A stretch of 64,000 bases of DNA from Sthenelais limicola (lineage: Eukaryota; Annelida; Polychaeta; Phyllodocida; Sigalionidae). A program made the position numbers and the translations under genes. Below, piece after piece: positions 767 to 45,066 of the stretch; position 1 is the stretch's first letter, and the number at the start of each line of letters is the position of its first letter. The stretch spans positions 105,994,194-106,058,193 of the forward strand of contig OW804096.1 in assembly GCA_942159475.1 (NCBI GenBank), given 5' to 3'. The notes under the pieces were generated by a model, which saw only the letters and a program-made list of their open reading frames with translations, did not search any database and had not been told where the DNA came from.

Positions 767-1469
767 AAGGAGCAATGGGATCAGAACTCACCTTTAGGTG
801 TCAGTTACTGGCGTAGGAAGCTAATTTTGCCCCGAAGCTGGCAATAATTAGGAACTGGGATCCGAAGGATTCATGGAGTGGTTTGGACAATACTCTACGT
901 ACTCTGTGCCTAAGAATTTTTCTTAGGGGCTTAATCGACCAGGGGAAAGCTGCTTGGGTGAAGCTAAAACAGCCGTTTGACCTTCTCCATGCTATTCTCT
1001 GGGCCGAAGTATGGGAAGTTGTAGTTTGGACTTAGTTCCTGCTGCTGCTCTACAAGCCGCCTTCATGGGTCCGAAGGCTGTAGTTATTCCATTGGAAATA
1101 GCTGCAGCCGAAGCTTCCCAGTTGAAGAGACGCAGAAATGCGAACGCCAAAGAAAAGGCCATGGTTCAGGTCAGCCAGGCGCTAGCTTTGCAAGATTCTA
1201 ACGATGATGATCAGTCCGAAGAACTTGGCAATGCAGTAGTGCAAGCTGTCCAGGCCTGGCATGGAAAGAATGAATAGACTGGTTCCTCTGCTCAGCAGGT
1301 GATGACAACTGCTGAAGTAAAGGGGTAAAGAACCTGGCAGGTTCAGAAGTGCTACTTCTGTAGTGAGGAGGGACATTTCGCCTCGACTTGTCCCAAGAAA
1401 GTAGCTCTCCTTGAACTCTTGAAGAAGGCAGACGCTTCTAATGAGAAGCCTGCTACTTCGGGAAACTAG
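764..1469 (+). pseudogene. gag: gag remnant with CCHC zinc knuckle
   Basis: Gag would form the virus-like particle and bind the element RNA. Coding-like sequence starts near an ATG at 764 but changes frame at least twice: frame of 764 to about 845, a second frame from about 850 to 1030, and a third from 1011 on. In the last frame there are in-frame stops at 1275-1277 (TAG) and 1326-1328 (TAA). A nucleocapsid knuckle follows in that same frame at 1350-1391, C-x2-C-x4-H-x4-C (CYFCSEEGHFASTC), and the frame ends at TAG 1467-1469 directly after the frameshift heptamer. The N-terminal part is not recognisable by eye as a named gag family; the knuckle and position before protease make the gag assignment firm. 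As written this copy cannot produce full-length Gag unless the breaks are assembly errors. Confidence 0.75.
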
Positions 1470-1519
1470 GTTCGGCTCCTGAAGAAAGCGAGACGGGAGC
1501 CTCGGACAACACGCTTCTT
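1460..1519 (+). promoter_or_regulatory. Programmed -1 ribosomal frameshift signal (slippery heptamer + pseudoknot)
   Basis: GGGAAAC at 1460-1466 sits in the gag frame as G|GGA|AAC with the gag stop TAG immediately after. Shifting -1 enters the pol frame, open from 1445. Seven bases downstream, GGCTCC (1474-1479) can pair with GGAGCC (1496-1501). In the loop, AAGCG (1486-1490) can pair with CGCTT (1512-1516), extended by AAG (1482-1484) with CTT (1517-1519) around one bulged A, giving an H-type pseudoknot. Heptamer, spacer, structure and overlapping frames all agree. Confidence 0.8.
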
Positions 1520-3550
1520 AGTACCACAGTCCGCGAGGATCTTGGTAGTAGTCTAGAAACTGGGAAATCAGCCCAGGCACCGGTGTGTAAGATAGGGTTA
1601 AAGCTTAGCGACAAGAAGCTACCCGATCTGATAGCTGGAGGTCCTAGGCCGTTGCCGGACGGTGATTTTCTTCCTGAAAAGATTCAGGGATGCTCGGACA
1701 AGAGCCCTGGCGTGCGTTGGGGACAGGCCGAGTACCAAGCTGAGTCAGGTCAGGTTGTCTTGGTAGAAAAAGGCCAAGAGAAGTCTGCTCGGATTCAGAA
1801 AGTTTCTGTTCAACAGCTGGAAACTCTGGAGATTCCTTCCAAATTACTGGTGAGGGAGAGATGGTATGCCCCTGTAGGCATAGGTGGGAAGAGTGGTTAT
1901 TTCTTGGTAGATCCAGGCGCAACGACGAGTTTGATTACCAAGGATTTCTACGAATCCCTTCCACATGCGCCGCCTATGATTTCGGTGCGTATGGCGTGCT
2001 CGATGGGTAATGGAACGCCTATAACTACATATGGGAGCATGCTCTGTCCATATGAAGTGTCGGGTCGGACATACATGATGACATGTCTGGTAGTCAGCGG
2101 TCTGAAGGGCCCTGAAGACGGGATATTAGGTGCAGATTTTTACTATGTGCACCGTTGTTGTTTGGATTGGTCAGGAGTGTTTTATTTGGAAAACTTCGGA
2201 CATTCTGTTGTATGTAAACAGTGGAAAAAGAAGTCCGAAGGTGAAGAATTTTCCTCTATAAAGACCATGACTGTGAGCGAAGTAGATACTGGAATAGCTG
2301 TGACACTTAGGAAAGCGGTGATCATGGAGCCCAAATCTATTACACTTGCAGAATTGGACTTTGATAGTGGCTCAGACGCATCGGATGCTTGGATGTTCGA
2401 GCCAGACCAAGGATTGCTAGAAGACTTCGCCTTAGGGAGCCTGAATACATATGTTTCAGGTGGAGGTTCAACCGCTTTGGTAGCCTTCAGCAATCCGTCC
2501 GACTGCCCAATGAAAATTGGCAAACGGAGAGTGGTGGGCAGATTAAGTAGAGTTACTCTTGTGGCAGAGGATTCCGCTTTGTCTGAAGATGACGGTAGCA
2601 ATATTATCAGAGAGGCAATCATTAATTCTATACAGGTTACAGAATCGCCTGTGGCGGATGATGATCTGATAGCTCCCGACATCTTAGTACCACCGAGTGC
2701 AGAGTGCCCGCTGAAGAAGCTGGTCAATGATTCGGATTTGTCCGAGAAAAACGAGAAGAACGTTGCTCTGTCTTTGCTGGAAGAATTCCGAGATTGTTTC
2801 TCTCTACCAGGTGGCAAAGCCCTTGGTTGTACTGATAAAGTTCGCCATGTGATAGACACTGGAGATGCTTGTCCGATCAAACAAGCATACCGGCGTATTC
2901 CTGTGGCGAAGAGAGACAAGGCAGAGGCAGAGATTTGGAAAATGTACAGAGAGGGCCGAATTGAACATAGCAGTAGCCCCTGGGGTGCTCCTATTGTCAT
3001 GGTGGCCAAGAAAGATGGCACACAGCGTTTTTGCGTTGACTATCGTCAGCTAAACTCTGTCACTATAAAGGATAGCTTTCCACTACCTCGGATCGATGAG
3101 TGCATAGAGTCACTTGGTGGTAACCAGTGGTTCTGTACTTTAGATCTTGAAAGTGGGTACTGGCAGGTGGCGATGGATGAAGATAGCAAGTCGAAGACTG
3201 CATTCTTATCCAGTGTAGGGTTATTTCAATTCAAGGTTATGGCCTTCGGATTGTGTAATGCCCCCGCTACCTTCCAACGCATGATGGATCAGATGTTGGA
3301 TGGCCTTCGTTGGAAATCATGTCTGGTCTATCTGGATGATATCGTGGTTTTTGGGAAAACTCTTGAAGAGTGCCTAGATAACCTGAGACTCGTCCTTGAG
3401 CGTATACGGGATTATGGTCTTCGTTTGAAACCCAAGAAATGTGAATTTTTCCGCAAGAAAGTGGAATACTTGGGTCGGATTGTGTCAGGCCATGGCATTT
3501 CGCGGATCCGAAGAAGATCCAGAAAGTCAAGGACTGGCCAATCCCCATGA
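1466..3550 (+). CDS. pol: pol part 1: aspartic protease and reverse transcriptase (frameshifted at its end)
   Basis: Open from 1445; codons from 1466 are read after the -1 shift from gag. It has no needed ATG, so the GTG at 1583 is not a real start. The protease lies around 1850-2160: the active-site segment at 1910-1921 reads D-P-G-A where the family has D-T/S-G-A, and ILGADF (about 2127-2144) is the conserved later segment. RT spans about 2860-3500 with SSSPWGAPIVMVAKKDG, the VDYRQLN segment, TLDLESGYWQV (metal-binding Asp), FGLCNAPATFQRMM and the catalytic YLDD at 3329-3340. A one-base deletion at about 3500-3502 pushes the frame into a TGA at 3548-3550; the protein continues in the next frame from 3502. 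RT catalytic residues look intact; the unusual protease proline might reduce activity. Either a mutation or an assembly error explains the shift. Confidence 0.9.
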   Translation, partial: LGSAPEESETGASDNTLLSTTVREDLGSSLETGKSAQAPVCKIGLKLSDKKLPDLIAGGPRPLPDGDFLPEKIQGCSDKSPGVRWGQAEYQAESGQVVLVEKGQEKSARIQKVSVQQLETLEIPSKLLVRERWYAPVGIGGKSGYFLVDPGATTSLITKDFYESLPHAPPMISVRMACSMGNGTPITTYGSMLCPYEVSGRTYMMTCLVVSGLKGPEDGILGADFYYVHRCCLDWSGVFYLENFGHSVVCKQWKKKSEGEEFSSIKTMTVSEVDTGIAVTLRKAVIMEPKSITLAELDFDSGSDASDAWMFEPDQGLLEDFALGSLNTYVSGGGSTALVAFSNPSDCPMKIGKRRVVGRLSRVTLVAEDSALSEDDGSNIIREAIINSIQVTESPVADDDLIAPDILVPPSAECPLKKLVNDSDLSEKNEKNVALSLLEEFRDCFSLPGGKALGCTDKVRHVIDTGDACPIKQAYRRIPVAKRDKAEAEIWKMYREGRIEHSSSPWGAPIVMVAKKDGTQRFCVDYRQLNSVTIKDSFPLPRIDECIESLGGNQWFCTLDLESGYWQVAMDEDSKSKTAFLSSVGLFQFKVMAFGLCNAPATFQRMMDQMLDGLRWKSCLVYLDDIVVFGKTLEECLDNLRLVLERIRDYGLRLKPKKCEFFRKKVEYLGRIVSGHGISRIRRRSRKSRTGQSP

Positions 3551-6159
3551 ATGCTAGGGAAGTAAGGCAATTCATTGGATTTGCCTCCTATTACCGAGAT
3601 TTTATGAAGGATTTCGGTAAATTAGTGATTCCCTTGCAGGAAGTTGTAACCGCGGCAGGCAAGGATAAACAATATGCTAAACCCATAGAGTGGACTCCTC
3701 GTTGCCAAGATGCATTCGATACATGCAAAAATTTGCTAATCTCTTCACCTACTCTCGGATATCCTCAACCTTCGGGTAAGTTTATCCTTGATACAGATGC
3801 AAGTAGTTTTGGCATGGCGGGAATTCTGTCTCAGGTCCAGGAAGGAAGGGAGGTGGTTCTGTGTTTTGCAAGCCATAGTTTATCTAAGCCACAGAGGAAC
3901 TATTGTGCGACAAAGCGTAAGCTGCTTGCCGTTCTGACCTACCTGCAAAAATTCCGACATTACTTGCTTGGTAATAAGGATTTTATCGTTCGGACAGATC
4001 ACGCCTCCTTGCGTTGGCTGCTCAATTTCAAGGATCCGACCGATATGTTAGCTCGCTGGCTACTCACCTTACAGGAATTCGGGCTGGATCAGAGCATGAT
4101 TTTGCATCGGGCTGGTAAACAGCATGAAAATGCTGATGCGCTGTCGCGCTTGCCAACCAGAAAATGTGGAAGACCAGACTGCCTAGATTGTGGTGCGCAT
4201 GATGCTGTTATTGCCACTAACGAAGTTTCCTTAGGGACTCAGCGGAACGTGTTGCAAGAAGCTCAGCAAGCCGACCCACTTGTAAAAAGGTTGCTGAAAA
4301 TGTTGGATGGAACTGTGCCGATTCCTAGCAGAGAACATCTTGCTGGTGAGTCTAATGAGTTTCGGACATTTGTCAGACATCTTGGTAGTATGAAGGTCAG
4401 AGATGGTGTGCTATGTCTGGGGTGGACAAGACTAGCCACCGGAAAGAAATACTGGAGGAAAATTGTCCCTGTTTCCATGAGGAAAGAGATCTTCCAGGGC
4501 ATACATGGTGCCAAAACTGCGGGTCATTTCGGAACCTTCAAGAATGTCTGGTCAGCAAAGATGAGATATTTTTGGCCTGGTATGAGTTATGATCTGAGGC
4601 GGTGGGTACGAGCTTGCCCGGAATGTAATATGAGGAAGACTAGAGGTGGTGGTGGAATTTCTTACCTTAAGAAAGAAAAACATGGTGGTAGATGGAACCG
4701 AATATCGTTGGATATTCTAGGGCCTCTTCGGAGTACCCCTAGAGGCAACAGCTATATTATGGTTGTAGTAGACCATTTCTCTAAATGGGCCGAAGCCTAC
4801 CCCATGGCCGATCACACCGCTGAAAGCTGTGCAGAAGTTCTTTTTCGAGAATGGATCTTGAGATTCGGATGTCCTGTGTCGTTGCAGACAGATGGAGCTC
4901 CTGAATTTCGGTCTCAACTCTTGAGATGTCTACTTGACATGCTGGGAATCGAGAAGCTAATTACCCTCCCATACAGGCCTATGAGTAATGGGCAGTCCGA
5001 GAGGCTTAATAGAGTTCTTGTGGAACAGCTATCTTGTATGACTGATTCGGACGAAGTAGATTGGGATATGCTGACCCCTTGCATTGCTCATGCATACAGA
5101 GGGACAGTACATGCTGCTACTTTATGCACACCTAACTCAGTAGTCTTCGGAGAAGAGTTGGTAACGCCCATGGACATAGTTCATGGAGTTGAAAGAGGAA
5201 GTCTTGATTTCCCTTGCAAGGTTGCTTTTGTTGAGAACCTGAAACAGTGGATGAGAAAGGGACACCAGTACGTGCGGGATAATCTCGGAATATCTGCGGT
5301 TCACCAGATTAGGGATTATAACAAACGTTCTAGGCCCCCCAGTTTTGAGGCGGGGGAGGTGGTGTACCGATTCTGTCCCCCCAAAGCGAATAAGAAGCTC
5401 GGACCCAAGTGGGACGGGCCTTATAAAATCAGAAGGTTCATAGGAGGTACCACCCGTGAACTGGAGACAGCCGAAGGTCTAATGCGATACCATATCGACT
5501 ATCTGAAGCCGGCTTTCGATGAAAATGGGCCGATTCAAGCGGTTAACTTGGATCGGGCTCCAGAATTCCGAAGGCAGGAACAGGCTGGTATGGAAATCTT
5601 TAGACTAGAGGCTGGGAGAGTGGTGCCAGGGAAAGATTGTCCTAAGAAGGTAGAGAAAGAGAAAATTACTGTAGGCGTCAAGCCGAGAGGTAGACCTAGG
5701 AAGATCCGAAAGGGTAGTTCCAAGGAAACCTCCAGTAAATCTCTGCCTCTAAAGAAAAGAGGGGGTAGACAAGGGAAATCTGTTGCCAAACCTGACAGTT
5801 CCTTAGCAGACTCGGGACTTACGGCTACCCCGCCTGGGCTTTTGGGTCCAGGAAAGGCTTTATCATATGAGAAGTCTAAGGTAGCTACGGTCTGTCCGAA
5901 GAAGCGCGGGAGGCCGAAGGTTCGCACAGATACGTCCGACCAGCCGGTGGCGCCCCCGGTCGTTTTGAATAGGAAGCGCGGAAGGCCTAGGAAACAGCTG
6001 GTCCAAGCTGCTCCTGTACCTCCAGTGCAGCCGAAGAAACGACCAGGTAGACCAAGGAAAGGAGCTGTGGTTAATGCAAAACCACCAGATCCTTCTTCTC
6101 CTGGCATAGCAAGGGCTAAACGTGTACGAAAGGCCCCAGTTCGGTTGCAAATGAGCTAA
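3502..6159 (+). CDS. pol: pol part 2: RNase H, integrase and AT-hook tail
   Basis: Continues pol in a new frame after the one-base break; the ATG at 3547 is internal. RNase H: DTDASSFGMAGIL (about 3787-3825), TDHASLRWLL and NADALSRLP keep three acidic sites, but the Glu expected in the NYCxTxxELLAV segment is Lys (3919-3921). Integrase: HHCC zinc module (HGAKTAGH at about 4504, CPEC near 4618), then D in SLDILGPL, D in LQTDGAPEF and E in GQSERLNR, the last pair separated by exactly 35 residues, so the DDE core is complete. A GPY/F-like module (GPKWDGPYKIRRF) follows near 5404. The last 220 residues are a Pro/Lys/Arg-rich tail with four AT-hook-like cores (three RGRP, one PGRP) at about 5685, 5905, 5974 and 6045. 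TAA at 6157-6159 ends it. AT-hooks bind the minor groove of AT-rich DNA, so the tail may steer integration. Confidence 0.92.
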   Translation, partial: ADPKKIQKVKDWPIPMNAREVRQFIGFASYYRDFMKDFGKLVIPLQEVVTAAGKDKQYAKPIEWTPRCQDAFDTCKNLLISSPTLGYPQPSGKFILDTDASSFGMAGILSQVQEGREVVLCFASHSLSKPQRNYCATKRKLLAVLTYLQKFRHYLLGNKDFIVRTDHASLRWLLNFKDPTDMLARWLLTLQEFGLDQSMILHRAGKQHENADALSRLPTRKCGRPDCLDCGAHDAVIATNEVSLGTQRNVLQEAQQADPLVKRLLKMLDGTVPIPSREHLAGESNEFRTFVRHLGSMKVRDGVLCLGWTRLATGKKYWRKIVPVSMRKEIFQGIHGAKTAGHFGTFKNVWSAKMRYFWPGMSYDLRRWVRACPECNMRKTRGGGGISYLKKEKHGGRWNRISLDILGPLRSTPRGNSYIMVVVDHFSKWAEAYPMADHTAESCAEVLFREWILRFGCPVSLQTDGAPEFRSQLLRCLLDMLGIEKLITLPYRPMSNGQSERLNRVLVEQLSCMTDSDEVDWDMLTPCIAHAYRGTVHAATLCTPNSVVFGEELVTPMDIVHGVERGSLDFPCKVAFVENLKQWMRKGHQYVRDNLGISAVHQIRDYNKRSRPPSFEAGEVVYRFCPPKANKKLGPKWDGPYKIRRFIGGTTRELETAEGLMRYHIDYLKPAFDENGPIQAVNLDRAPEFRRQEQAGMEIFRLEAGRVVPGKDCPKKVEKEKITVGVKPRGRPRKIRKGSSKETSSKSLPLKKRGGRQGKSVAKPDSSLADSGLTATPPGLLGPGKALSYEKSKVATVCPKKRGRPKVRTDTSDQPVAPPVVLNRKRGRPRKQLVQAAPVPPVQPKKRPGRPRKGAVVNAKPPDPSSPGIARAKRVRKAPVRLQMS

Positions 6160-7235
6160 TTATGGTACTGGACCGAGGGTAGGAATCTCCGAACTGATTT
6201 CTACCCAAACTAAAAAATCACACAACGAGAAGTCAGACGGGTGGTGGACCGAACTAAGAGCCGCCCTGTCCCCTATTGATAAGCAGTAAAAATGGACTTT
6301 ATTCAGTTAATTCCATTTGTGACTGGGAGTCTCGGAAAGTACTTAACCTTACCCTGGGTACCGCTTGTATGTTAAACTGGAAATCCAAAACGTCTTCAGT
6401 GGCCACGGACTTCAGTGTAAACATCGGAATCTATTTATAACGAATAGAGTGTTGCCTACGCCTGGGGTGGGTTTTGAGGAAATCAGAGAATGATTACACC
6501 TCTGCATCGTCTCAGCAGAGACCCGAATAGCTGAGTGGGAACACGCGCCCAAGGCTATTTTCGGGCTCAGAAGGTGAGCGCGGGAAGAAAATTGGCGCTG
6601 CAGTAGTGCGGCGACTGAATGCAACTCTGGCGTTGCAGTGGTTAAATACGCTGGTGTTTTACCGTTTCAGTCAGTCTACTTCCTGCTTCCGCGAAGCAAA
6701 GCACCGAGACTACCTCTTAGAAAGAGAACTGTGCAGTAAGTTTTATCAAGTGATGATCCTTGTGAAATATATTGCCCTGTGTTTGTAGTCCCTTTGCTCG
6801 AGTAGTCAAGTTGCATGAATGCTGTGGGTCGTATATTAACTGTGTTTGGGGCACGTTGATAATGCGCGGGCTGGCGTGGGACCTATAGCGGCCATGTTGT
6901 TTTCGCCATTGGTGTAGGAATGAATGAACGTTGCTATCCGAAGGTGTTAAACTAAACTTGAACAGCGTATCCGCTGCTGATATACCAATAAACGTTCAGT
7001 CTTTGTGTTTTGGAAGTAATCAACCAACTCACTGTGCCTAAAGCGTGGGTATATTCGTGTAGTGAAGGTTTGGATTTCTCGATACCACTACGCTCTATGT
7101 GTGTAGTAGCTGTCAGCCACAGCCGAAGCGTGTCCGAGAGGAGTCCGAACGTCCATCTGCAGCAAATAACAGGTATTTTCTGTACTTATTTCTACCCATG
7201 CCATCATTATACTTTCAGGTACCGATTGAATAGTG
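6160..7235 (+). other. Spacer between pol and the third ORF, with splice-acceptor-like site
   Basis: About 1.07 kb without a good coding frame. It holds an AATAAA at 6987-6992 and, just before ORF3, a pyrimidine-rich run ending ACTTTCAG (AG at 7217-7218), a good splice-acceptor shape 17 bp before the ORF3 ATG. A donor-like ACAG|GTATTT lies near 7170, so a tiny 48-bp intron is formally possible too. Several short frames (for example 7010-7285) have no recognisable domain. Confidence 0.5.
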
Positions 7236-9413
7236 ATGTCGACTTCAGGAGAATTCGAGAATATGACCGAGGACCAGTTGGCTGATTCCCTCAACGCCAA
7301 GCTGTCCGAGTTGGATCTAGAGATGGATCTGGACGGTTCGGACTGCGAGGTATTGTCGGACGAGGAGGCTAAGGTCTTGGAAGGGTCTCGGATCCTTGTT
7401 GGCATGGGTCAGCCTGACGCAGGTGGCTCTGGGACCGGCACCGTAACTTGCTGGGGCGCAATTATGGAGGCCGATGATGCTAGGAAAGCAGCTGCTGAAG
7501 AGGATGCGGCGATGGTGACAGACATGGCTGAGGTTGAGTCCGAGACTCCCGAAGCCAAGTCTGTACCTTCGGCTGGTACCTCTAAGCAAAAGCCTAGATC
7601 CCCCAGAAAGCAGGACAGGCCGAGGATGAAGGATGGAGAGATGAACGAGTCCCCGTGGACTCTATCTCCAGATCCTGCTGATTCCTCGGCGGCAGTAACT
7701 GTGGAGCTCATGGATTCACCGGCCAAGAGCACCCGGTCTTCTGCCCGTCAAGTTCGCAAGCCCCGGAGTTCGGACCCCAAGTCGAACTCGAAAGGCAAGG
7801 CACCTTCCCCAGCGACTGGAACTACTAAGTTGAAGTTCCGGAAGCTGAAAAAGGTCCATGTGCATCGTGCTAAGGTGAGGGAGGATCAGCTGGCGCACTC
7901 GGGCTCATTGACTAAGTTCAATGCCGAGTTGGACAAAGCCACTGATATTGTCCCGCTGAACCCGAAGCACGATCGGCCAGGCTCACGTCATCTGATGGCC
8001 ACAGAGTCCGACTCTGAAGATGACCATGGACTCATGCTTCGGTATGAATCCTGTCTCTACCCGGGGCTGTGTAAGGCGGGTAAAATGGAGCCTGGTACCA
8101 GTGAGAAGCTCCGACTGGTACCAACTCTGTGGGAGCCTGGATTTCGCTGTCCGTACTTGGTGTGTAGGCGAGTGAAGCTCAATGCTTCAGGTGTCCGAAT
8201 TTTCTCCACCCGAGAAAGATTCTTCAGGCACCTGTGCGAGGTTCACACCCCTCAGACAGAAGTGTGGGTCTGCCCCTACGAGAACTGTCAGCAGCAGCTT
8301 GACAGGAAATCGGAGTTGGTCAGCCACATCATGAATGGGGAGGAGCTGCTGCACAACCAGGGAAGGCCGAAGGCGATGGAGAAGGCGGCGAAAGTGAAGC
8401 CTGAGTGGAAGCCCTTCGGAGCTTTCATTCGGACTACTCATCTTTCGATGGCCCATCTCCGGACCCTTCGAAAGGCTGGTGAGGTGGATGTCCCCAGAAC
8501 TGGTACTGGGAAATCCAAACCGACTCAGACCTCGGTAAAGTCTAGCACAGCGACTTCGGACAAGTCAAGTGCTAGTACTAGCTCGAAGGCCGCAGCCTCC
8601 AAGCGTCCGAGGACTGAGAGCCAGTCGAAGGCAGCTGAGTTGACTGCTCCTCCTGCTAAGAGGAGCAGACGTTCGAGGAAGGCCCAGAAATGGGTGGACA
8701 CAACTCTGGCCGAACTGCCTTGTGCTTTGGAGACCGCTGCTCTGGTGGAAACATCAGAGACCGGCGTGAACCAGGCGTTGAAAGCCCTGCAAGTAGCTGC
8801 AGAGGATGCCAAGAGGCAGGTCAAAGTGACCGTGGCGGCTCTTGTGACTCCTCTGAAAAAGCTTCAGGCGGTGAGGGCGAAGGTGGATGAGGTAGGCACG
8901 CTGAAAGAAACCATCAGTCAGCAGGCTCTCCTCATCCGGACTCTGAAGGCATCCAATCAGGAGAAAGAACAACGCATCCTGAAGCTCTTGGAGGAGAATA
9001 CCAGACTCCAGGGCTTGCTTTTGGATGATTCGGATGAGTCCAATCAAGGTGTGAGCAGGTCGGAAAGTTCCCTGGGTGGAAAGCCGACCTCTCTCCCTGC
9101 CAAACCAGTTGAGGAAGCTCAAGCCTTGCCTTCTTCAGGCTCGGGCGAGACTCCTGGTTTGACCGTGATGTCCAGTCGAGCTGGTGGGACGTTGGAGGTT
9201 AACGACCAACAAATCCATTTCCTCACCAATCTCCTGGACCAGATGAAGTCCCAACGTGAGCCACCCCAGCCTCAGAGAACTGTGGCTTCGGCTGCGTTGG
9301 GCCGGGCGCCTCCCGAGCAAGGTATGTTCGGCAGTATGTTCGATACTCCGGACAGACCTTCTGCAAAGGACTCGCCCGATGGAACGAAAGACGACGACGG
9401 CAAGGATGACTGA
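7236..9413 (+). CDS. Third ORF of the LTR element: C2H2 zinc fingers plus coiled coil, 725 aa
   Basis: An uninterrupted frame from ATG 7236 (in-frame TGA at 7227) to TGA 9411-9413. The N-terminal 300 residues are Ser/Pro/Lys-rich and acidic-basic patchy with no named domain seen. Two finger-like modules follow: C-x4-C-x21-H-x4-H (Cys at 8148 and 8163, His at 8229 and 8244) and C-x4-C-x12-H-x8-H (Cys at 8271 and 8286, His at 8325 and 8352). After a Ser/Thr/Lys linker comes a long helical, Leu-rich coiled-coil-like region at about 8760-9030, and a disordered acidic tail. There is no signal peptide or membrane segment, so it is not an envelope protein. It lies inside the element between pol and the polypurine tract, in the same strand. 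It may be a nucleic-acid- or chromatin-binding accessory protein, or a host-gene capture. It is the only main ORF here without a break. Function unknown. Confidence 0.8.
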   Translation: MSTSGEFENMTEDQLADSLNAKLSELDLEMDLDGSDCEVLSDEEAKVLEGSRILVGMGQPDAGGSGTGTVTCWGAIMEADDARKAAAEEDAAMVTDMAEVESETPEAKSVPSAGTSKQKPRSPRKQDRPRMKDGEMNESPWTLSPDPADSSAAVTVELMDSPAKSTRSSARQVRKPRSSDPKSNSKGKAPSPATGTTKLKFRKLKKVHVHRAKVREDQLAHSGSLTKFNAELDKATDIVPLNPKHDRPGSRHLMATESDSEDDHGLMLRYESCLYPGLCKAGKMEPGTSEKLRLVPTLWEPGFRCPYLVCRRVKLNASGVRIFSTRERFFRHLCEVHTPQTEVWVCPYENCQQQLDRKSELVSHIMNGEELLHNQGRPKAMEKAAKVKPEWKPFGAFIRTTHLSMAHLRTLRKAGEVDVPRTGTGKSKPTQTSVKSSTATSDKSSASTSSKAAASKRPRTESQSKAAELTAPPAKRSRRSRKAQKWVDTTLAELPCALETAALVETSETGVNQALKALQVAAEDAKRQVKVTVAALVTPLKKLQAVRAKVDEVGTLKETISQQALLIRTLKASNQEKEQRILKLLEENTRLQGLLLDDSDESNQGVSRSESSLGGKPTSLPAKPVEEAQALPSSGSGETPGLTVMSSRAGGTLEVNDQQIHFLTNLLDQMKSQREPPQPQRTVASAALGRAPPEQGMFGSMFDTPDRPSAKDSPDGTKDDDGKDD

Positions 9414-39357: not shown

Positions 39358-41091
39358 ATGTTCGAAGTGAACACAAGGAAAAGGCGAAACGAAGGTCCTA
39401 CAGGTTCATCTCCAAATGCCAAGAAAGCTCCTGACTCTATTGAAGTAAGTTCTATGATGAGTTCTCCTACAGTCGGTGACGCAAATCCTGGTACTATGGA
39501 TAATCAGCAAGCCTCACAGGAAGCAACGCAATTGTCCCTCCTCGACACGAACAAATTATGTGCAGAAGTTGCCACTAATCTCACTGATGAGATAATACGC
39601 AACAACGAGCAGGACGATCGTGCCTGAATAAAGACCAGTACCAAAAAAAAAAAAAAAATTTGCTGGAAACAAGAATAAAGTCATTAGAAACTCATGTGGA
39701 GTACTTAACGCATGAATTAAAGAGGCAGCGTACAATCAATAATGAAGTGGATACCAAATTAAGACAGAACTGTGTCATTTTCAACGGTGTTCTTGCAAAA
39801 CGTGACGAAAACATAGTAAATACTGCAGCGCAAATTATTAGAATGGTCATACCAACATTCAAGAACGATCAATTGGATGAGACCTACCGCATCGTGTCAA
39901 AGAAAAAAGAAAATGGGCGAAGAAGACCAGATCCAATAAACGTAAGGTTTCAATCGTTGAAAGACAAAAAGCTATTTATGTCACGAAAAGGATCTCTTTT
40001 CGATAAAAGCAAATTTAGTTCTGAAAGATACCCAGCGATCCAATACTGGTCCTTTGAGGACGACACCAATGCTGAAGTCCGAAGAAATCGTGGGCTATTG
40101 CGACAAATTGCCAAAAAAGCTATTCAGGAAAATGTTGATACCACAGCCAAAGTCAAAGGTGATAAGGTGCTAGTCAAGGGACGCACCTATGGTGCCGACG
40201 AATTCGAACTCCTACCAGAAAAGGTTGCCCCGTCCACCATCAAAGTTCAAAAGGTGGCCCTGGGTTTGGCATATCAGTCATCGTATGCATGGCCCTCTAA
40301 TCTTTACCCATGTGAGTTCACTGCAAATAGGCTGCCATTCTACTCAGTAGAACATGCTTTTTTTTTATTTTAAAGCATTAAAGACCAGAAACAACCCTGC
40401 TGCCAGACGCATTGCTAAATTACGGGACCCTTACGAGATAAAAGCTGAAGGCTCTAAACTTATCTCAGATGAGGATTGGGAAAAGCGCGAAGAAGCCTAC
40501 ATGCGTTCTCTCCTGCTAGCAAAGTTCGAGCAAAATAAGGACCTCAGACAGTTACTCCTAGCTACAAATGAAATGGAGCTCATTGAAGCAACAAATGACC
40601 TAAAATGGGCATGTGGTGTATACCTAGGGAATGTGCAGTTACAAACTCACACCTGGGATGGATTTAACCGACAAGGCCAATTACTGATGAACGTCCGAGC
40701 TGAACTAAAGGAAAGATACAGGAATGAGGTGGCTAATATTACCATGCTATCTCCTCCCCCCGCGCCTATAGATGTGAAGGACCTGAGCCCTAACTCCCAA
40801 GCTAAAGCGAAGCCGAGATATTTCCGTCGTTTCCCTTCCGCCGAAGAAAGACAAACCCTCGACATGGATGTAGAAGCTGACTTGGAAAATGATATGTCGT
40901 CCCTCCTGCTATCTGACACAACCCTACAAAATATGACTGCGTTGAAAATAGACAAGAAAGACTTACTCGCAAGTAGCACGCCTCACCCAAAGCTGGGCCT
41001 ACACGACCGAATCTCCGGCTCGCAAAACATTAAAGACGCTCTAAATGAATCGGTCAACAGAATGAGGAAAGCCAAATACAAACAGAATTAA
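39358..41091 (+). pseudogene. LINE ORF1: coiled coil, RRM/CTD-like region and NADAR domain
   Basis: Starts ATG 39358 with a Ser/Pro-rich, basic N-terminus. A frameshift near 39620 and an A16 run (39643-39658) precede a coiled coil (about 39660-39760), an RRM-like fold (NCVIFNGVL onward) and a C-terminal-domain-like stretch to about 40215, the layout of L1-type ORF1 RNA chaperones. From about 40285 to 40720 lies a NADAR/YbiA-like domain: SNLYPCEF, YSVEHAFF, LLLAKFEQN, LRQLLLAT, LKWACGVYLGN and WDGFNRQGQLLMNVRAEL follow the family order. A nine-T run (40358-40366), one T more than the frame needs, splits the domain. A Pro/Asp-rich tail reaches the TAA at 41089-41091. NADAR enzymes hydrolyse N-glycosidic bonds of ribose-phosphate or ADP-ribose conjugates, including ADP-ribosylated guanine in some bacterial systems. 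Here it may act on nucleic acid or nucleotide in the RNP; that role is inferred. Confidence 0.82.
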
Positions 41092-41798
41092 GTACTTACC
41101 ATATTGATCGTCTGTGTATAGTTGTCATGCCCGTAATTATTTCCATTGTATGTTTTTTAGAGGTTAAAAGTTGATAACATCGCTCCCACCTTAAAACACG
41201 TGTAGTAAACAAAACCACGCTACTTCCGGAAGTGGTCGGCAGAAAATATCACCGACACTTTTCAGTTATTCTTGACTGAACGAGTAGACTAATAAATACT
41301 AGTATAACTGGTAAATTATAACCCAATAGGTCAACCTAATATTGTTAGGTAATTAATGAATAATTAGTACGTTTTCATTTTTTGATAATACTGTGTTCTG
41401 CGGGCGCACATGCAGACCCAACATGGCGGCCTACTCGGCCGTCTCGCAAGTTTAAGGCTAGCGTAAAAGTGCTTTCTGGTTTGGATTACCATATTACTGT
41501 AAGTAGAAGCCTCTCTTTATGTATATATGTTTAGTTCCCATTACATGTGTATTACTGAAAGTCATGATGTCCTGGTTGAAGCACAACCGTACATAAAGTG
41601 TGTTGTTGTTCTGAGTTTACGCTCGACGTGCCCATATGTTCGATAGCCTAGTATGGCCATATCTGTTTTTATACATTACTCCTCTTGTTTTTACGCACCG
41701 CTACCCCGACTCTTGGTATATAGCCTGCCTCGCGGTCTCATTTAGACCTCAATACAAAGATTGTCATGCATTGTATGTGTTTATAGCCTTCCAACGTG
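41092..41798 (+). promoter_or_regulatory. LINE inter-ORF region with promoter-like motifs
   Basis: Contains CACGTG (41197-41202), a palindromic ETS-type site ACTTCCGGAAGT (41222-41233), a YY1-like AACATGGCGGC (41420-41430) within a GC-rich patch, and a GTAAGT donor-like sequence (41499-41504). These are typical of TATA-less promoters, including LINE 5' UTRs. ORF2 may therefore have its own transcript. Motif recognition only. Confidence 0.35.
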
Positions 41799-44694
41799 AT
41801 GGAATCGGATAATCCGCAATGTCTATCTGAGCTCAAGGGCATGGGAATATTATCAATGAATATCAGATTGATAAGAAACAAAGTATATGAGCTCCATAGT
41901 ACTCTTCTCTGTAGATTTGTAAAAATATTGTGTATCCAAGAAACATGGCTGAATGACTCCGACTTCGATTCTCATGTTCTCCTCGACTCAAATTATAGTA
42001 TATGTAGGTATGATCGTAAATCCGATGACCCAGCTGTAAAAAAGAATGGAGGAGGGTTATGTTGCCTCTTTAGAGATGACTGTACAGTTGATAAATGGAA
42101 ATATAATGACCTAAATATCTGTAATCGCAACATAGAGTTACAATGTCTTGAGGTAAAACCAGGATTGAGAAGGAAGTTTTGCTTACTGAACCTATATCGC
42201 CCGCCGTCGGGCGACAAAGCCCTGTTCATAAATGAGTTAAGGTCATCAATCTCAGGCCTAAAAGAAATGTCAAAACATCATAATATTTTTCTTTGCGGTG
42301 ATATCAATATCAACTTACTGGACAAGAAAGAGTCAAAGGCAAATGATTTTGTCTCAATGTTATCTGACTTTAACCTTGTTTCATGTATCGATAAACCTAC
42401 TAGATACTCAGGTAATACTGGTACCTTAATCAATGTTATGTTCACGGACCATCCGCATATCTTATCATCTAAGGTGCTAAATGTAAATATCTCTGACCAT
42501 CTATGTCTCCTTTCACAATTTAAAAAAGGAAAGGAACAGGTTCACAGAGATGTACGTAAGGGTCGAAGGTATAATTAGCTGAATGAAGCTCATCTTGAAA
42601 ACTACTTACAACCGTATCGTGATGTAGAATTTAGCTTTGGGGATGCTATGAAATCCACAGAGGAAATCTGGACTAATATGAAATCATGTATTATAAAGTA
42701 CTTAGATCGTTGCTGTCCTGTTGAGGAAATAAGAACTGTAAGAAAGGGTAGCTTCAAATTACCAAACGTTCTCTTAAAGAAAATAAGGGACCGTGACAAG
42801 CTGTTCAAAAAATCAAGGAGATACAACTCTGATGAATATTTTAAACAGGCTGTTGCTCTTAGGAGAGAAATCAGTAAACAAATCAAACAACAGAAAAGGG
42901 AAACCATCCGAACAAACCTACAAAATTCTGCTAATAATAGCAAAAAAATTTGGAGAAACATAAACGATCTTTTCGGGAAAGGTTCTAAATCTCTACCAAC
43001 TTCCTTTATACATGATAATCGAGAAATAAATGGTCTTGAAGCTTCTAATAAGCTGAATGAGTTTTTCAGCAAATTTGGTTCAACTGATAGGGAGTCGTCC
43101 CAATCTCACGTGAATTATCTTGATGATGCACCGAAACTAATGATGTCCACAAAAACTCTTATTACTATCGAGAAAATTGAAGATCTGATAAAGGATATTG
43201 ATACTTCCAAAAGCTGTGGCTTTAGTTGGATAAACACTAAGATACTAAAATTATTCCTACAACAGCTCACACCCCATGTCACTCTATTGATGAAGCGTTG
43301 TATGGCCACAGGTGTTATGCCAAAGGAGTGGAAAGAGTACACAATTACACCTATCCCCAAAGAGGGAAACCTGAGATACTTTAATAACTTGAGACCTATC
43401 GCCATAGTTCCGACCCTATCTAAGATACTCGAAAAAATCATATGTACTGCCTTAGTCGATCACATGGAGACGAATGATCTATTTTGTCCCTCTCAAGGAG
43501 GTTTCAGAGCTAACCACTCAACTAATCTAAGCTTTTTTGATTTTCTGTCACCCATAATACATGGTATTAATAATGGACAGCTCACAGTAGCATCCTTCTA
43601 CGACATATCGAAAGCCTTTAACTGTATCGACCACAAAATTCTATATGACAAAATGGTCTATTATAAGTTAAATCCCTCTTTGATCAAAATCATCATGAAC
43701 TATCTCCATAACAGGGCCCAAAGAACAACTATAAATAATTATGTGTCTGACCACATTGTTATAAACAGAGGCGTACCCCAAGGTAGTCATATCGGCCCGA
43801 TAGTATTTCTAATATATATCAACGACCTATCCTCTTGTATAAAAAACCTAATCGCCCCTGATATGAATGTAAATCTGACTCTTTACGCAGATGATACTGC
43901 GGTCAGTATAACTGGCCCAGATCTAAACAAATGTATGACCCACACCCAGCTGGTTATGAACTCAATTAACAAGTGGATGCTGGATAACATGCTTAATCTA
44001 AATGTAAAAAAATGCCAGATACAACTATTGGGAATGACTAATAGATTGAAAAAGGTAAAATTTGATAACCTGGCAAAAATATATCTAAAAGGCCAGGAGG
44101 TTGTAAAAAACAAGAGTAGTGAACTATCTCGGTTTCAAGATCGACGATAAATTAACCATGAAAGGTCATTTGATAAAAATGAAATCATCAGCCATGTATA
44201 AGCTACTACAGTTTCCGCGTATAAGAAAGTATCTCACTATAAAAATGGCAAAGATAATAGTAAAAAGCCATATCTTGTCCTTACTAGAGTACGGTAATCT
44301 TTTCGCATCTATGGCTAGCGTTGACATAAGAACAAAGCTTCAGCGAATCATATATAATGCAGTAAAAACTGTATATTTCAATGACCCTAGGGATAAAATT
44401 GAATTGTGTAACGAATGTCGGATCGATTCTCTAGAAAAACGTTCAAAGATTGCACTTATGCAAATAATGTATAGAAAACGACTGGATAAGAAAAACCTAA
44501 GTGATATACCAGTGATTACTAGATTAAACGAAGGACCGGTGATGAAGGTCATGGTACCAAAACTAGAGAAAGTAGTGCGATCCCCTCACTATATTGGACC
44601 AACCTTATGAAATAGTCTTCCGTCTATTATTCGTTTGAAATCCTGGGATAACATAAAAAGTCATCTTAAATCAACTGATGATTGGTATGGTTGA
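41799..44694 (+). pseudogene. LINE ORF2: APE-type endonuclease and reverse transcriptase (broken)
   Basis: ATG 41799. The endonuclease covers about 41850-42510: SMNIR, catalytic Glu in CIQETW (41940-41942), YRPPSG, GDIN, and SDH at 42492-42500. The TLINVMFTD segment has Asn where Asp is usual. TAG at 42576-42578 interrupts the frame between endonuclease and RT. RT follows in the same frame: RPIAIVPTLSKILEKII, QGGFRANHST, FYDISKAFNCIDH, GVPQGS and YADD at 43884-43895. A one-base loss near 44115 changes frame at the thumb segment (NYLGFKIDD continues in the new frame). TGA at 44608-44610 replaces the expected Trp of LWNSLPS; the natural end is TGA 44692-44694. The product would nick target DNA and copy the LINE RNA from the 3' end. 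Catalytic residues remain, so the damage looks recent or partly artefactual. Confidence 0.9.
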
Positions 44695-45066
44695 CTCTAA
44701 AACATGTCTCTATCATTTGCTTGAGCAAATCAAATCAAATGTATATAATATCTTGCATGCGACATGTCTTTTATCTGTCATGTGGCGGACTATGTTATAA
44801 TTTTGAGGAGAAAAAACAACAACAAAATCTATGTGTTTATTGTAGGTATGTATTTTCCTCAGTAGAGGTACCCAATGTATTCACCAAATGAAACTTGTAA
44901 CCTATAACAACAAGGTATTTTGAAACCCTTAATGTATTAATGACTCGACTTAAATACTTAAAATATTTTATTTATTATGAGATAACATTATATGTTTTCT
45001 GGACTACCATGGAATTATCATTGTATGAAAATGGATCCAATAAAATTTGTTAAAAAAAAAAAAAAA
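44695..45066 (+). other. LINE 3' UTR, polyadenylation signal and poly(A)
   Basis: Non-coding tail ending with AATAAA at 45039-45044 and A15 at 45052-45066. This defines the 3' junction; the downstream flank starts GTCCAGTAAGG. I could not find a matching target-site duplication at the 5' side. Confidence 0.85.

Follow-up and report, generated by a model that had tools for sequence, protein, structure and literature searches.

A stretch of 64,000 nucleotides from the polychaete Sthenelais limicola (contig OW804096.1, positions 105,994,194 to 106,058,193 of the forward strand), referred to here as the window, contains a long interspersed nuclear element (LINE) whose first open reading frame (ORF1) encodes an L1-like protein joined to a NADAR domain. 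The fusion is real, a point on which we have practically no doubt. As the best explanation overall, held at somewhat less than even confidence, we propose that the protein coat formed by ORF1 (ORF1p) removes base-linked ADP-ribose, probably on guanine, from the RNA or cDNA of the element.

The NADAR domain and the L1-like part of ORF1

A first-pass annotation, made by eye, had named a series of NADAR signatures in ORF1. All are present in the order given there, across two frames that meet at a run of nine T (40358-40366): SNLYPCEF and SVEHAFF lie in the frame 39591-40373, and AKFEQN, LLLAT, the W..GV segment and WDGFNRQGQLLMNVR in the frame 40351-41091. The Pfam comparison that it proposed was performed on the segment read with an X at the frame break, and its reservation that no NADAR match might be found proved groundless. 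The segment matches PF08719 with 101.6 bits (E 6.9e-29, gathering score 35.1) over profile positions 8-163 of 163, and the piece 40354-41088 alone matches Pfam NADAR with 85.2 bits (E 7.6e-24). The cut-off of NCBIfam TIGR02464 is also passed (84.3 vs 73.7 bits). When the 681 ORFs of at least 40 amino acids in the window were searched with a NADAR profile of related proteins, only 40351-41088 (1.5e-37) and 39591-40370 (2e-6) matched. As a control, 20 rounds of shuffled window ORFs gave no match to this profile or to a profile of the relatives' coiled coil, RRM and C-terminal domain (CTD). The Pfam score and the shuffled control rule out a chance match as the source of the NADAR signal.

In the numbering of the Phytophthora nicotianae NADAR, which is used throughout with residue roles taken from PMC11543638, the window copy has E, K and E at positions E43, K50 and E125, the catalytic residues expected of the NADAR superfamily, and the YbiA-like fold of the superfamily is found as well. 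Published work is cited here by PMC number. The YbiA subfamily is characterised by Glu, not Asp or His, at the E125 position (PMC11125620), and this glutamate is present in the window and in 28 of the 29 LINE sequences tallied below.

The L1-like part that the annotation had placed before the NADAR domain is also borne out, as the coil-RRM-CTD profile matches one of the 681 ORFs, 39591-40370 (E 3.6e-22). A Pfam scan of the window ORF1 pieces gave no RRM or Transposase_22 match, and the identity of the window ORF1 to the 25 relatives compared is 14-26% in the RRM and 15-32% in the CTD. Coiled coil, RRM and CTD follow each other in the order of a type II LINE ORF1, and the relatives resemble L1 ORF1p in sequence as well as in fold. 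For one relative, an AlphaFold model has structural matches to the human LINE-1 ORF1p trimer and to the Phytophthora NADAR with bound ADP-ribose; the predicted structure of relative P0003 has a long helix at residues 65-144. Human LINE-1 ORF1p has the same order and fold of coiled coil, RRM and CTD. It ends after the CTD, whereas the window-type ORF1 continues past it into the NADAR domain and a tail. Human ORF1p is trimeric according to structure entry 2ykp, and the RRM of L1 ORF1 binds single-stranded nucleic acid, with a preference for RNA, and has chaperone activity (PMC4120745).

The element is laid out as a LINE (a non-long terminal repeat retrotransposon), with ORF1 from 39358, ORF2 from about 41787 encoding an endonuclease and a reverse transcriptase (RT), and a poly(A) 3' end at 45052-45066. 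Its features are as follows.

39358..39627, + strand: ORF1 N-terminal piece of 89 amino acids without a recognised domain; ends at TGA, the open frame changing between 39591 and 39627
39657..39749, + strand: ORF1 coiled coil (approximate), placed by alignment with relatives and the long helix in the P0003 model
39750..40061, + strand: ORF1 RRM, approximate limits from alignment with P0003
40062..40265, + strand: ORF1 CTD, approximate limits from alignment with P0003
40266..40710, + strand: ORF1 NADAR domain, from Pfam and NCBIfam matches; split by the frame change in the T9 run; first bases of key codons at 40350 (E43 equivalent), 40372 (K50), 40441 (K75), 40477 (W89), 40585 (E125), 40597 (D130) and 40606 (W133)
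40711..41091, + strand: ORF1 C-terminal tail, no family match above cut-off
41787..42578, + strand: ORF2 endonuclease (Exo_endo_phos_2), ended by an in-frame TAG (42576)
42579..44150, + strand: ORF2 reverse transcriptase (RVT_1), in the same frame as the endonuclease
44107..44610, + strand: ORF2 C-terminal part, in a shifted frame
45039..45066, + strand: LINE 3' end, with AATAAA at 45039 and A15 at 45052-45066

The copy is decayed, with breaks in both ORFs. ORF1 is spread over three overlapping frames (39358-39627, 39591-40373 and 40351-41091), with a run of 16 A (39643-39658) preceding the coiled-coil part, and ORF2 has the in-frame TAG and one frame change near 44107-44150. The breaks may be either mutations or sequencing errors in homopolymers. 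The ORF1 tails of relatives, where present, are poorly conserved. A target-site duplication was looked for around the element in the window, and none was recognised.

ORF2 matches Pfam Exo_endo_phos_2 (7.7e-8) and RVT_1 (1.2e-31). Among solved structures, the best match of the RT is L1 ORF2p (6.9e-11), and the endonuclease has no match. At the places aligned to L1 ORF2p the RT reads GFRANHST, DISKAF..IDH, GVPQGS and YADDT, where the L1 counterparts are GFIPGMQ, DAEKAF, GTRQGC and FADDM. Judged by consensus motifs and the L1 ORF2p alignment, these motifs look to be of the Jockey/CR1/L2 type rather than the L1/Tx1 type. Type II ORF1p has been reported in the CR1, L2 and R1 clades as well, and exchange of ORF1 between LINE lineages has been proposed earlier (PMC4120745).

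Relatives, earlier reports and conservation of the fusion

The fusion is not peculiar to the window copy, as database relatives have the same fusion in unbroken ORFs. None of the 34 proteins listed is, on reading of the sequences, a full-length ORF1 that lacks the NADAR domain; the query profile includes NADAR and only the 7998 candidates sharing most words were scored, which biases this count against NADAR-less elements. P0002 is a row of the query profile and is absent from the 34 matches. A whole-length protein search with the joined ORF1 gave no match among the 7999 candidates scored, and a scan of bacterial and archaeal genomes with one LINE NADAR gave 34 pattern matches and no relatives. 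Because the relatives keep the fusion unbroken, the NADAR domain is very probably a working part of this LINE lineage. Insertion of NADAR into one copy, a concern of the first-pass annotation, is contradicted by the unbroken fusions and by the agreement of the trees described below.

Conservation of the ORF1 parts was compared for 21 main-clade relatives, with the partial rows and the divergent P0031, P0032, P0033 and P0035 set aside. Over 210 pairs, the mean pairwise identity is 0.503 for NADAR, 0.447 for the RRM and 0.421 for the CTD; for the coil it is 0.376 over 190 pairs. The NADAR identity is higher than that of the RRM in 180 of 210 pairs, of the CTD in 184 of 210 and of the coil in 187 of 190. 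By this measure the NADAR domain is the best conserved of the four parts, and the pattern indicates constraint at the protein level.

Trees of the N-terminal part and of the NADAR domain, built from the same 28 rows, agree in their clades where sampling is good. The clades common to both are P0016-P0018; P0019-P0022; P0009, P0011 and P0013; and P0001, P0003, P0006, P0007 and P0015 (88/86 in the NADAR tree). The deep branches (the window, P0031-P0033 and P0035) are long and poorly resolved, and the trees do not agree there. P0031, P0032, P0033 and P0035 are highly divergent coil-RRM-CTD-NADAR proteins. In a tree of 51 rows, the NADAR domains of P0032 (weakly) and P0035 (in a starred clade, 95/96) group with non-LINE NADARs, so that capture of NADAR by ORF1 more than once is possible. 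A single group of all 29 LINE NADAR rows is not rejected (approximately unbiased test, p 0.31), nor is one of the 28 without P0035 (p 0.42); the branches concerned are long.

The first-pass annotation was not aware of NADAR as a LINE ORF1 domain. Its identification of the domain and of the fusion stands, but the combination is not unreported, having been mentioned briefly in a 2025 paper (PMC12477816). In that paper, NADAR domains are said to be apparently present in the ORF1 proteins of several Tx1 LINE families of Crassostrea gigas and are described in Pol of one Ectocarpus Gypsy lineage, and processing of RNA intermediates is suggested as their role. A literature search, made without preprints and with few subscription papers, found no report of a LINE ORF1 NADAR beyond PMC12477816. 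The LINE ORF1-NADAR fusion as such is already known. What is new here is the sequence and fold proof that an L1-type part is joined to NADAR in one protein, the broad and divergent set of relatives, the joint inheritance of the parts in the main clades, the ranking of the parts by constraint, the pattern of active-site residues, and a NADAR-ORF1 element whose RT motifs look Jockey/CR1-type.

Comparison with other NADAR-bearing parasites is by description. The C. gigas Tx1 LINEs have a YbiA-family NADAR in ORF1 in common with the window element, whereas the ORF2 motifs of the latter look Jockey/CR1-type, not L1/Tx1-type. The Ectocarpus Gypsy lineage is also a NADAR-bearing retrotransposon, but it is a long terminal repeat element with the domain in Pol, not in ORF1 (PMC12477816). 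Polyproteins of animal RNA viruses likewise provide a genetic parasite with NADAR, proposed to be an eraser of macromolecular ADP-ribose (PMC9503650), but these are RNA viruses, not LINEs.

Active-site residues and possible function

Active-site residues were tallied for 29 of 36 ORF1 rows (35 relatives and the window); P0004, P0026, P0028, P0029, P0030, P0034 and P0036 were omitted as their NADAR part is incomplete. They were compared with 22 non-LINE NADARs, namely 19 of 26 viral loci together with P0005 and parts of 8bau and ybiA. The viral loci left out are the duplicates L004, L016 and L017, the wrong-frame L007 and L008, and L014 and L018, which fail the motif rule. Most of the non-LINE set is viral and its members were picked for resemblance to the query, so that they are not a fair sample of all NADARs. 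P0005 is an 870-amino acid protein that joins microbial PARG, ADP-ribosylglycohydrolase and NADAR, members of the three known ADP-ribosylhydrolase families in one chain. The NADAR matches of L001 and L014 lie in long frames of viral contigs (777 and 2817 amino acids between stops), unlike the short frames of most other loci.

All 29 LINE rows have glutamate E43, and 28 have E125; W89 is kept in 28 (one gap) and W133 in 28 (one Y). Four of 135 columns are at least 95% conserved in the 22 non-LINE NADARs but less than 70% in 28 LINE relatives: K50, K75, D130 and an L-to-Q column near the C terminus of the domain. K50, K75 and D130 adjoin the ADP-ribose pyrophosphates (PMC11543638). K75 is K in 21 of 22 non-LINE NADARs vs 15 of 29 LINE rows. 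Fisher tests of LINE against non-LINE rows, which ignore the relatedness of the rows, give 1e-8 for K50 and 1e-5 for D130. The window copy retains K50, K75 and D130, and has S at R79 and E at R93. Compared with the Phytophthora nicotianae NADAR (8bau) and E. coli YbiA (2b3w), which are not fused to ORF1, the LINE members vary at K50, K75, R79 and D130, and the spacing from E125 to W133 is one residue shorter in all 29 LINE rows except P0031.

We picture ORF1 as a type II RNA-coating protein with a predicted YbiA-type NADAR hydrolase at its C terminus. Trimers of ORF1p would coat the RNA of the element and so hold several NADAR domains on it, and these would hydrolyse the N-glycosidic bond by which ADP-ribose, or a similar ribosyl group, is attached to guanine in that RNA or in first-strand cDNA. 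Adducts on bases, which would otherwise bring reverse transcription to a halt, would thereby be cleared, so that the RT could copy its template. The likely makers of such marks would be host guanine ADP-ribosyltransferases, for example of the CARP-1/pierisin type known from clams. Since the two ribose-site glutamates are kept, intact members are probably catalytically active. The undoing of ADP-ribosylation on element RNA or cDNA, already raised by the first-pass annotation, fits by analogy with published NADAR biochemistry: NADARs are the sole hydrolase family found to reverse ADP-ribosylation of the guanosine base in RNA, being inactive on RNA phosphate ends (PMC11833690). Clams have guanine-N2 ADP-ribosylating enzymes (PMC11209040), and therefore hosts capable of such marks exist among bivalves. 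That the substrate is specifically guanine-linked ADP-ribose on the element's own nucleic acid is possible, on balance doubtful.

Several observations weigh against removal of ADP-ribose by these domains. K50 is K in 22 of 22 non-LINE NADARs, whereas the LINE rows have R in 17, K in 7, H in 4 and M in 1; D130 is D in 22 of 22, whereas the LINE rows have D in 13, N in 13 and others in 3; and the R79 position is R or K in 20 of 22 but in only 9 of 29 LINE rows, with S in the window. With K50, D130 and R79 altered, binding of ADP-ribose may therefore be weakened or changed in LINE NADARs. P0033 is without E125 and has N there. The C7 enzyme of E. coli depends on its lysine at the K50 position; with arginine there (K95R) it still hydrolysed in vitro but failed to rescue cells, and a change at the E43 position (E88A) made little difference in vitro (PMC11543638). 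A guanine ADP-ribosyltransferase in the host of the window element is assumed. Bacterial NADARs had no or negligible activity on PARP10-made uracil-linked ADP-ribose (PMC13036486), and therefore not every RNA mark would be reversible. Finally, the window groups with P0033 in the N-part tree (94/88) but falls inside the main clade in the NADAR tree (81/78), both placements resting on long branches.

The altered phosphate-contact residues in many LINE versions leave the substrate open and make a re-tuned one a serious rival, one we rate as rather unlikely. The domain would then be an active ribosyl N-glycosidase whose target is not ADP-ribose: it would act on a different adduct linked to bases, or take part in processing the transcript of the element. 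The ribose-site glutamates stay while the pyrophosphate grip is remodelled, as K50, K75 and D130 make up three of the four differing columns; in addition, SNA-3, a nematode protein with NADAR, has been implicated in trans-splicing (PMC11125620) and free YbiA acts on riboflavin intermediates (PMC11543638). Yet the change is not general, with K50 kept in the window, P0012, P0014, P0025, P0031, P0032 and P0035, the non-LINE sequences were selected for similarity and come mainly from viruses, and in one enzyme hydrolysis of guanine-linked ADP-ribose persisted in vitro with arginine in the place of K50 (PMC11543638). The same variable phosphate contacts, which may make for poor turnover of ADP-ribose, could instead point to a reader, not an eraser, that would anchor the ribonucleoprotein by binding to ADP-ribosylated DNA, protein or RNA, for example at ADP-ribosylated nicks. 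This is quite unlikely: few positions are kept as well as the ribose-site glutamates, variation falls on the very phosphate grip on which a reader would depend, and we know of no use of NADAR as an ADP-ribose reader. In its favour, a role in targeting has been suggested for the accessory PHD domain found in other LINE ORF1s (PMC4120745).

Action on small soluble molecules, either NAD-derived or of the riboflavin pathway, that would counter a diffusible host signal is very unlikely. TIGR02464, a model of riboflavin-intermediate N-glycosidases, is passed by all seven sequences scanned, one of them barely (73.8 vs 73.7), and phage NADARs have been posited to have soluble targets (PMC9503650); on the other side, a domain fused to an RNA-binding coat protein would be expected to act on nucleic acid, and the same paper assigns animal RNA-virus NADARs mainly to macromolecular ADP-ribose. 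A passenger, that is, a host NADAR fragment captured by chance in one copy or a fold without a role, would suit the broken state of ORF1 and ORF2 in the window, but it is hardly credible, as it is already contradicted by the many relatives with unbroken fusions, the agreement of the main-clade trees and the high constraint.

In the field, it is considered unclear what animal NADARs do, and likewise those bacterial NADARs that are not part of DarT operons (PMC11125620). A conserved, unbroken NADAR in a retrotransposon coat offers a testable link, either as an eraser of ADP-ribose on its own RNA or cDNA or as a NADAR re-tuned for RNA processing. A broader picture, which we regard as unlikely, is that NADAR-ORF1 LINEs are an old and widespread branch of retrotransposons, probably of animals, whose RNA coat doubles as a nucleic-acid de-ADP-ribosylase, kept because their hosts place marks on the guanines of nucleic acid that is foreign or replicating, the altered phosphate grip of many members being an adaptation to marks on polymer-bound bases. 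Clam CARP-1 can ADP-ribosylate guanine in DNA. If true, guanine ADP-ribosylation would be an animal defence against transposons with a known escape, and there would be a biological reason for this modification in animals such as clams.

Other features of the window

A Gypsy-like pol is present at 1445-6159 in two frames, with aspartyl protease, RT, RNase H, H2C2 and rve integrase; its C-terminal tail contains several GRPRK-like motifs that by eye resemble AT-hooks. Downstream of it, an open frame of 727 amino acids (7230-9413) has, by eye, two C2H2-like stretches and a coiled-coil-like part, and gave no Pfam match above cut-off. At 290-847, a frame of 185 amino acids is rich in repeats of the FRTDFR/FRISDGF type and is either a tandem-repeat coding frame or a product of chance.
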